Shown here piece after piece: positions 21,618 to 23,131 of a stretch of 64,000 bases of DNA. Below the pieces are notes generated by a model. That model did no database searches, had not been told where the DNA came from, and was given only the letters and a program-made list of their open reading frames with translations. The translations under genes and the position numbers were made by a program. The DNA comes from Nitrospinota bacterium. Its GTDB lineage: Bacteria > Nitrospinota > Nitrospinia > Nitrospinales > VA-1. Position 1 is the stretch's first letter, and every line of letters starts with the position of its first letter. Location: positions 62,001-126,000 of the forward strand of contig JAQCGX010000003.1 in assembly GCA_027619975.1 (NCBI GenBank), given 5' to 3'.

Positions 21618-22190
21618 CTACGCTTCAACGGGCCGCAGGTATTCCCGGCAGATGAGCGTTACATCCGTCTTGCTCAGGTTTTCCTGTGTCAGTTCACAGA
21701 AAAATTTCCCTTCCCCCTTTTTGCTGTTGTAGTGGCAGGTCCGGCACAGGCCAAAGGGTTTCATTCCGTTTAGCTGCTGCATCCTCTGTAATAGCTGTTG
21801 GAGCCCATCGGTCAATTGGTTTTGCTCCGTCTCCGGCACGTCCTCCCAAGCCCTAACCACCGTCTGAGCGGGCAGGGTATCCCCCAAAAGCTTCAGGCCC
21901 CTCTTCGTTACATTTAAATGAACCATCCTGCCGTCTTTTTTATCCGGGCTTTTCTGTATGAACCCTTTTCTTTCTAAAGCCATGAGGGTTTGAGACACCG
22001 TTCCCTTGGTCAGACCAAAATATTCCGTCACGCCTTGGGGAGTGTTTGAATACCGATTGGAACGACTCAGAAATTGCAGGGCACTCAGCTGTATGGGCTG
22101 AAGGTCGTAATCAGCCCCTGCCTGGCGGGTCTCTGAGCGAAGTAATTGGGATATTCGCTCAATGTATTCATGTAATAGGGAAGCGCTCAT
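21618..22190 (-). CDS. MarR-family regulator with C-terminal four-cysteine motif
   Basis: 190 residues. Residues ~10-140 form a winged HTH of the MarR type: QLSALQFLSRSNRYSNTPQG, LTKGTVSQTLMALERKGFIQ and the wing DKKDGRMVHLNVTKRG. After residue 145 there is an added tail with four cysteines, C149-x2-C152-x12-C165-x15-C181 (LCRTCHYN...FFCELT...ICREYL). That spacing suggests a metal or iron-sulfur site and so a redox or metal signal; this is inference. It faces the cytochrome P460 operon across a 117 bp region with two matching palindromes and overlapping promoters. Its own predicted -10 box puts transcription start within a few bases of the ATG, so the message may be leaderless. Confidence 0.88.
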   Translation of the reverse strand: MSASLLHEYIERISQLLRSETRQAGADYDLQPIQLSALQFLSRSNRYSNTPQGVTEYFGLTKGTVSQTLMALERKGFIQKSPDKKDGRMVHLNVTKRGLKLLGDTLPAQTVVRAWEDVPETEQNQLTDGLQQLLQRMQQLNGMKPFGLCRTCHYNSKKGEGKFFCELTQENLSKTDVTLICREYLRPVEA

Positions 22191-22198
22191 AATTATTT

Positions 22199-22227
22199 AT
22201 TGTATCGAATCAAAACTAATTTGACAA
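22199..22227 (-). promoter_or_regulatory. Sigma70-type promoter of the MarR gene
   Basis: Minus strand: -35 TTGTCA (22222-22227), 17-base spacer, -10 TACAAT (22199-22204). The -35 box shares bases with the -35 box of the divergent promoter on the plus strand, so the two cannot be occupied at the same time. The palindrome at 22201-22217 lies between the two boxes, which predicts that the MarR protein represses its own gene. Confidence 0.65.
22201..22217. promoter_or_regulatory. Putative MarR operator 1
   Basis: Imperfect 17-base palindrome TGTATCGA-A-TCAAAACT, with 6 of 8 half-site bases paired. It matches operator 2 in the pattern GTATCGAnTCAAnACTAA and lies 56 bases from it, centre to centre. 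It covers the MarR promoter spacer. Confidence 0.6.
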
Positions 22228-22249
22228 ATGAATTTCCATAGGCTATATT
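22221..22249 (+). promoter_or_regulatory. Sigma70-type promoter of the cytochrome P460 operon
   Basis: Plus strand: perfect -35 TTGACA (22221-22226), 17-base spacer, -10 TATATT (22244-22249). Expected start of transcription is near 22256, where operator 2 begins. The gene at 22308 follows a good ribosome binding site (AAGGAGG, about 10 bases before the ATG). Confidence 0.75.
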
Positions 22250-22256
22250 TCATTTA

Positions 22257-22273
22257 AGTATCGAGTCAATACT
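22257..22273. promoter_or_regulatory. Putative MarR operator 2
   Basis: 17-base palindrome AGTATCGA-G-TCAATACT, 7 of 8 half-site bases paired. It begins at the predicted transcription start of the P460 operon, a position where a bound repressor would block the polymerase. Confidence 0.65.
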
Positions 22274-22307
22274 AAATTAGCGGTCTAAATTTAAGGAGGT
22301 AAAGCCA

Positions 22308-22790
22308 ATGAAGTTTATTGCGGCATGTTTAGCAGCGGTATTTCTCCTCAGCTCTGCGCCCGAAGGGGTTGCGGACAGTGGAAAGGTTGATTATCCAGAA
22401 GGTTATAGGCAATGGACGCATATTAAATCCATGCTGATCGAGCCTGGACACCCATTGGAGAACCCGTTTCAGGGATTGCACCATGTTTACGGCAATAAAA
22501 ATGCAATAAAAGGACTTAAAGCGGGAAATTTTCCGGATGGATCGGTCCTGGTTTTTGATCTTTTGCAATACAGCCAGGGCGACCATGCCATTCAGGAAGG
22601 GGAGAGAAAGTTAATAGGGGTGATGCAAAAGGATAAAAAGGCATTCAGTGCCACCGGTGGATGGGGCTTTGAAGCGTTTCCCAAAAATTCTAAAACGGAT
22701 CGTGTCGTGGGAGATGGCGGAAAAAGTTGCTATCAGTGCCACACCTCCGAGAAGGATCACAGTCTTGTGTTTTCCCGATTAAGAAAGTGA
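22308..22790 (+). CDS. Cytochrome P460 family protein
   Basis: 160 residues with a signal peptide (MKFIAACLAAVFLLSSAPEGVA), so periplasmic. The family body is clear: YRQWTHIKSMLIEPGHP, GLHHVYGNKNAIKG, NFPDGSVLVFDLLQ, GVMQKDKKAFSATGGWGFE, and a single c-type haem site C141-Y-Q-C-H145 near the end, followed by VFSRLRK. Members in ammonia oxidisers turn hydroxylamine into N2O or NO and carry a lysine cross-linked to the haem; lysines are present at 64, 68 and 71, but I cannot say whether one is that lysine. Others in the family detoxify reactive nitrogen. It is first in an operon with a thioredoxin-like gene and is controlled by the adjacent MarR gene. Confidence 0.9.
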   Translation: MKFIAACLAAVFLLSSAPEGVADSGKVDYPEGYRQWTHIKSMLIEPGHPLENPFQGLHHVYGNKNAIKGLKAGNFPDGSVLVFDLLQYSQGDHAIQEGERKLIGVMQKDKKAFSATGGWGFEAFPKNSKTDRVVGDGGKSCYQCHTSEKDHSLVFSRLRK

Positions 22791-22854: not shown

Positions 22855-23088
22855 ATGAATAAAGCTATTTTTTATCACGCGGGATGCCCTGTTTGTGTCG
22901 AGGCGGAACAACGGTTTGTCTCTGCCCTGAACCCATCGGAATATCAGGTGGAAGAAGTTCATTTGGGCAATGAAAAGGGTCGCATCAGCGAAGCCGAAGC
23001 GGCGGGAGTGAAGTCCGTCCCCGCTTTGGTTGTCGGAGGCACTCCTTTTCACATTAATTTTGGAGCTTCCATCGACGCATTGAAATAA
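22855..23088 (+). CDS. Small thioredoxin/glutaredoxin-like protein (CPVC)
   Basis: 77 residues from the ATG at 22855, which has AAGGA about ten bases before it; longer in-frame starts would add only a basic leader. The fold shows FYHAGCPVCVEAEQRF with a CxxC active site at the N-terminus of the first helix, and SVPALVVGG with the cis-proline of thioredoxin folds. There is no signal peptide, so it acts in the cytoplasm while its operon mate P460 is periplasmic. It could keep cysteines of the neighbouring MarR regulator reduced; that is inference. A terminator follows. Confidence 0.8.
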   Translation: MNKAIFYHAGCPVCVEAEQRFVSALNPSEYQVEEVHLGNEKGRISEAEAAGVKSVPALVVGGTPFHINFGASIDALK

Positions 23089-23102
23089 GGTTTGGTGAAT
23101 GG

Positions 23103-23131
23103 CCGGTGGCAGGCGCCGCTGCCGGTTTTTT
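23103..23131 (+). terminator. Intrinsic terminator after the P460 operon
   Basis: An 8-pair stem, CCGGTGGC with GCTGCCGG (two wobble pairs), a 7-base loop and a run of six T (23126-23131). It sits 15 bases after the stop of the thioredoxin-like gene and just before the end of the convergent Rieske gene. Confidence 0.75.

Follow-up and report, generated by a model that had tools for sequence, protein, structure and literature searches.

A four-cysteine MarR-family regulator and a conserved twin-operator switch predicted to control a cytochrome c′-beta gene in Nitrospinota

In a 64-kb stretch of Nitrospinota DNA (the window, by which we mean the whole stretch analysed), a marR gene on the minus strand and a cytochrome gene on the plus strand diverge from the intergenic region 22190–22308, which carries two copies of a conserved operator word. 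We consider it likely that this region is the switch of a MarR repressor with a cysteine centre, released by a reactive nitrogen or redox signal, which would control itself, a cytochrome c′-beta and a thioredoxin and, in relatives, MOSC genes. The divergent MarR switch as such is conserved and very probably real and ancient, as near-identical arrangements are found in related nitrite-oxidizing bacteria and on Enterobacter plasmids. The architecture of the sites, their conservation, their co-occurrence with MarR, the membership of the regulon, the identity of the cytochrome and the invariance of the four cysteines are read directly from sequence comparisons.

Divergent MarR switches are themselves well known; what is of most interest here is the four-cysteine sensor, the cytochrome c′-beta target and the cross-phylum operator. 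As in other autoregulated divergent MarR repressors, a MarR_2 winged-helix protein is found together with palindromic operators over its own and the divergent target promoters; the differences here are the placing of two operators around promoters with a common −35 and the four-cysteine C-terminal motif. The first-pass annotation of this DNA missed the four-cysteine motif, the thioredoxin-like gene in the regulon and the presence of the switch in other phyla. A conserved regulator with its co-regulated genes offers a direct route to what induces cytochromes c′-beta. Nitrospinota are major marine nitrite oxidizers, and their handling of NO or hydroxylamine matters for nitrification.

Gene layout and identity of the cytochrome

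The features of the locus are, in order of position:

21618–22190, minus strand: marR, a 190-aa MarR-family regulator with C-terminal Cys149, Cys152, Cys165 and Cys181 (Pfam MarR_2, E 7.6e-12)
22199–22204, minus strand: marR −10 box, TACAAT
22200–22218, unstranded: operator A, TTGTATCGAATCAAAACTA, covering the marR −10 and lying immediately upstream of the c′-beta −35
22221–22226, plus strand: c′-beta −35 box, TTGACA, with 5 bases in common with the marR −35
22222–22227, minus strand: marR −35 box, TTGTCA
22244–22249, plus strand: c′-beta −10 box, TATATT
22256–22274, unstranded: operator B, AAGTATCGAGTCAATACTA, over the predicted c′-beta transcription start
22294–22300, plus strand: Shine-Dalgarno-like AGGAGGT stretch of the c′-beta gene
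22308–22790, plus strand: cytochrome c′-beta gene (Pfam Cytochrome_P460), with CYQCH at 141–145, Phe54 and Phe83, and Gly104
22855–23088, plus strand: thioredoxin/glutaredoxin-like gene, 77 aa with a CPVC motif, second gene of the operon
23101–23127, plus strand: terminator-like stem-loop, 3′ of the thioredoxin-like gene

The regulator, whose nearest named relatives are found in Nitrospinaceae and Nitrospina assemblies, contains a MarR domain (PF12802, E 7.6e-12; PF01047, 3e-07) and shows a MarR-like secondary structure in a predicted model of moderate confidence; its matches to the curated NCBIfam MarR families all fell far under the cut-offs. The conserved predicted operators A and B agree with what is typical of the family, a palindromic operator of ~16–20 bp at the regulator's own promoter. 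Family matches of the 77-aa CPVC protein were weak and sub-threshold, and its homologs bear the same operator pair.

The cytochrome had been called a cytochrome P460, which does not hold in the strict sense, as both the heme–Lys cross-link and the catalytic carboxylate are missing, and the gene encodes a cytochrome c′-beta. The protein is 60% identical to Methylococcus capsulatus McCP-beta over 134 residues (PDB search, E 3e-59), matches PF16694 with E 5.2e-32 and ends in a C-terminal CXXCH motif (CYQCH, 141–145). Cytochromes c′-beta are recognized by a Phe cap (PMC10318465) and by having neither the heme–Lys cross-link nor the distal carboxylate (PMC11928373, table 2); a five-coordinate heme able to bind NO also characterizes the class. 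Phe54 and Phe83 correspond in the alignment to Phe32 and Phe61 of McCP-beta, the position of the cross-linking Lys is taken by Phe83 and that of the distal carboxylate by Gly104. The window protein thus resembles McCP-beta (6HIH) and TtCP-beta (7EAD) in its Phe cap, its CXXCH and the lack of both Lys and carboxylate. The hydroxylamine-oxidizing cytochrome P460 has the same Pfam family and fold but carries the cross-linking Lys and a distal Glu/Asp, and we rejected this assignment. From these residues, binding of NO would be expected and oxidation of hydroxylamine would not. Cytochromes c′-beta bind NO very fast in vitro, and their cellular role is unsettled. The main text of the superfamily review nowhere mentions MarR regulation, operons or Nitrospina.

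Promoters and paired operators

The two predicted sigma-70 promoters match the consensus at 11/12 positions on the plus strand (TTGACA–17 nt–TATATT) and at 10/12 on the minus strand (TTGTCA–17 nt–TACAAT), and their −35 boxes overlap at 22222–22226, which bears out the divergent promoters with common −35 bases described in the first-pass annotation. Promoter-like sites as such are no more frequent here than chance allows, with four against 2.7 expected in shuffled sequence. The marR ATG begins 8 nt past the end of its −10 box, and with the −10 so near the ATG there is no space for a Shine–Dalgarno sequence, so that the marR mRNA is predicted to be probably leaderless. In the Nitrospinota orthologs the gap from −10 to ATG is ~6–9 nt; the Enterobacter and Pseudomonas versions of marR have a purine-rich leader.

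Two palindromes had also been described. The better one, AGTATCGA-G-TCAATACT at 22257–22273, is as reported, with arms pairing at 7/8 positions; the other, at 22201–22217, is present but weak, its arms pairing at just 5/8 positions. A palindrome equal to the better one arose in 273 of 2,000 dinucleotide shuffles of the 117-bp region (14%, P ~ 0.14), which is not significant alone. The sites stand out more clearly as a repeat: TTGTATCGAATCAAAACTA and AAGTATCGAGTCAATACTA are copies of one 19-bp word, 56 bp apart and flanking the c′-beta-side promoter, and an equally good direct repeat was seen in 1 of 400 shuffles. A 34-bp repeat at 74% was also seen. Searching with the consensus derived from relatives, we found just these two sites in the 64-kb window at ≤3 mismatches (0.09 expected) and just the same two in the 2.93-Mb genome at ≤2 mismatches. 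Three extra matches in the own genome at 3 mismatches were unpaired and were treated as noise.

We searched 100 genomes around the source for relatives of the MarR and the P460-family protein. The MarR was present in 19 genomes, with one further distant match, and close P460-family relatives were found in most of the 19. Reading the intergenic regions revealed the consensus TAGTWTCGANTCGAWACTA twice per promoter at ~20 Nitrospinota promoters, the two copies spaced by 54–56 bp and sometimes by 46–49 bp; at a spacing of 49 or 46 bp, operator B sits nearer to or on the −10. Across 14 aligned promoters, operators A and B reached means of 1.62 and 1.58 bits per column and the −35 block (22221–22227) 2.00 bits per column, with the −10, the spacer and the flanks below them at 0.50–0.87 bits. 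In the 64 genomes searched for the site, it was found in 17/17 genomes carrying the MarR versus 6/47 without it (P = 7e-11, Fisher test, a value that overstates independence, as the genomes are related and several of them supplied the consensus). One of the six site-positive genomes without the MarR has a paired copy at a contig edge, and the rest have weak single matches. Those single matches, with 2 mismatches (in G010, G029, G032, G050 and G057), we attribute to chance, as they are unpaired and their rate is like that of a reversed-pattern control, which gave 10 matches over the same genomes.

The first-pass annotation had tied its reading to conservation of the palindromes in relatives, and they are indeed kept there, upstream of P460-family genes. 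The same comparison bears on whether the palindromes and promoter-like hexamers could have arisen by chance in AT-rich intergenic DNA. The local statistics would allow it, given a best palindrome at P ~ 0.14 and promoter-like sites near the shuffled count, but both words and the distance between them are conserved in different families, before unlinked genes and in Enterobacter. This refutes the chance reading, which we regard as exceedingly improbable.

Unlinked targets and occurrence in other phyla

In two genomes (G042 and G044) the cytochrome c′-beta gene is on a separate contig from the MarR gene, and both operators are still present. In the single-contig genome G046, a blind pattern search recovered an operator pair upstream of a homolog of the 77-aa CPVC thioredoxin, at a distance of ~1.3 Mb from marR. 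G042 likewise has an operator pair at a second thioredoxin gene. That the pair also precedes P460-family or thioredoxin genes remote from marR indicates a regulon. In G007 and G019 we found no relative of the cytochrome c′-beta, and the region retains operator A but lacks operator B. Together with the unlinked loci, this suggests that A serves the promoter of the regulator and B that of the target, A also persisting at targets that have no divergent regulator.

The operator-bearing thioredoxin genes are followed by YcbX-type MOSC (MOSC_N/MOSC) genes in G036, G042, G044 and G046 and by a YiiM-type MOSC gene in G047; this last one matches the 6-hydroxyaminopurine reductase model at a score under the model's cut-off. 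The operator-bearing operons of G003 and G047 include a small protein that is probably exported. YcbX and YiiM of Escherichia coli reduce N-hydroxylated compounds and bases (PMC3831636). The combination of cytochrome c′-beta, CPVC thioredoxin and MOSC genes in operator-bearing operons is indicative of reactive nitrogen or redox stress.

Beyond Nitrospinota, an IncHI2 plasmid of Enterobacter hormaechei carries a MarR 46.7% identical to that of the window, with the four cysteines and divergent from a thioredoxin gene; the intergenic region contains operator A and a perfect operator B, TAGTATCGAATCGATACTA, at a spacing of 55 bp and with TTGACAAA in between. A plasmid record of Pseudomonas aeruginosa has a MarR (46–47% identical, same four cysteines) divergent from a thioredoxin gene, its operators degenerate (4 and 3 mismatches) and spaced as in Enterobacter. 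In Thermus thermophilus HB27, a gene for a more distant four-cysteine MarR lies 10 nt after a c′-beta gene (L109, 3947–4963). Another distant four-cysteine MarR gene, on a Nostoc plasmid (L111, 832–6609), diverges from tpx and from thioredoxin-like and MOSC genes, and one in Sphingomonas adjoins a thioredoxin-like gene. A globin-family gene is located close to the Nostoc locus. The presence of the switch in Pseudomonas and Enterobacter makes this little-studied four-cysteine MarR class accessible to experiments in common laboratory strains.

The four-cysteine motif and the mode of action

Past its MarR domain, the regulator has the motif C149-x2-C152-x12-C165-x15-C181, and none of its four cysteines varies across 20 homologs, the most distant of them 25% identical. 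Of the 60 listed matches to solved MarR structures, not one covers the motif whole, 3nqo_A aligning up to query residue 170. An AlphaFold2 model built from 8 sequences gave a pLDDT of mostly 70–90 for the MarR core and of ~30 for residues 142–190, a value at which the fold is unreliable and the cysteine region undefined. The invariance of the cysteines is compatible with an Fe–S winged-helix NO sensor of the type of ArnR, a [4Fe-4S] winged-helix repressor of narKGHJI and hmp that is released by NO (PMC12343034). Of the systems met in the literature, ArnR of Corynebacterium glutamicum is the closest functional parallel: both it and the window MarR are winged-helix repressors, the latter by prediction, with C-terminal cysteines and placed on NO-handling genes. 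The likeness is one of description; ArnR has three conserved cysteines against four in a CxxC-C-C pattern here, and its homologs are almost only found in Actinobacteria. We propose that the four-cysteine centre is probably an Fe–S cluster, or possibly a zinc–thiolate or disulfide site. In the open-access literature on MarR with P460, four-cysteine MarR with Fe–S, Nitrospina with MarR, and PA0942/PA0941, we found no account of the regulator.

MarR-family proteins bind DNA as dimers and are released by a ligand or by oxidation. In the mechanism that we infer, which includes MarR binding, repression, polymerase exclusion, cofactor and signal, a MarR dimer would bind the two copies of TAGTWTCGANTCGAWACTA, operator A covering its own −10 and operator B the start of the joint c′-beta/thioredoxin transcript. 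Because the promoters have a common −35 region, RNA polymerase could probably serve no more than one side at any given moment. With MarR bound, both directions would be off or low. Reaction of the four-cysteine centre with NO, other reactive nitrogen species or an oxidant would cause MarR to release the DNA, after which cytochrome c′-beta and the small thioredoxin and, in relatives, MOSC-type reductases could be made. The earlier suggestion that one repressor controls both genes is strongly supported by the comparison as far as a single MarR and two operators are concerned; its repressive action is suggested by the position of the sites.

Repression is the likely mode of action. The retention of operator A at unlinked c′-beta promoters without a divergent marR implies that the site is not only autoregulatory and could also help to activate, and A, lying just upstream of the c′-beta −35, is kept with B at both c′-beta and thioredoxin promoters of this kind. 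A dual regulator that represses marR and activates c′-beta from operator A, with operator B as a brake, would account for this, but we find it improbable: operator B sits over the predicted start, or overlaps the −10 at a spacing of 49 bp, as expected for a repressor, and a near-consensus sigma-70 promoter (11/12) should need no activator. A less remote alternative concerns only the signal part of the preferred explanation. The signals sensed by many MarR proteins include aromatic or phenolic ligands, metals and organic peroxides, and CxxC…C…C patterns are commonly zinc sites; the same switch might respond to such a signal, with the four cysteines forming a structural zinc site. The DNA-binding domain has the fold of an ordinary MarR, and the operon of the Nostoc relative contains a thiol peroxidase; that the four cysteines would equally suit Zn2+ or disulfide chemistry counts against the signal assigned. 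On the other hand, nitrogen-oxide or redox stress is a better match for the targets (an expected NO-binding cytochrome, a CPVC thioredoxin and MOSC reductases), and the invariance of the four cysteines even at 25% identity also speaks against this alternative. On balance we take this alternative to be rather unlikely and prefer release by reactive nitrogen or a redox signal. A broader and more tentative proposal, which we hold to be somewhat doubtful, is that the four-cysteine MarRs of Nitrospinota, Enterobacter plasmids and Pseudomonas, and distantly those of Thermus, Nostoc and Sphingomonas, are Fe–S sensors of nitrogen oxides, with the twin-operator switch defining a cross-phylum regulon of c′-beta, CPVC thioredoxin and MOSC genes. 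If true, this would be the first regulatory context for cytochrome c′-beta.

Some loci depart from the common arrangement. G047 has a second MarR paralog. Its operator, TAGTTTAGATCCTAAACTA, is shifted, and the paralog appears to control the exported protein, the thioredoxin and the YiiM-type MOSC (L041; L096, 410–2518). In G006 and G008 the gene for a different four-cysteine MarR is co-directional with genes for a P460-family protein and for the same thioredoxin (L097, 1498–3106; L099, 262–1734), and a different palindrome, TTAGGAGTCCTAA / TTAGCAGTGCTAA, is found where these loci start. A second P460-family gene near the same MarR in G059 has Lys at the cross-link position (L074, 253–843). In G048, ~300 additional bases lie between operator B and the cytochrome gene (L024, after 2145); they contain GGACACTAGTGTCC-like palindromes and may be a small mobile element.
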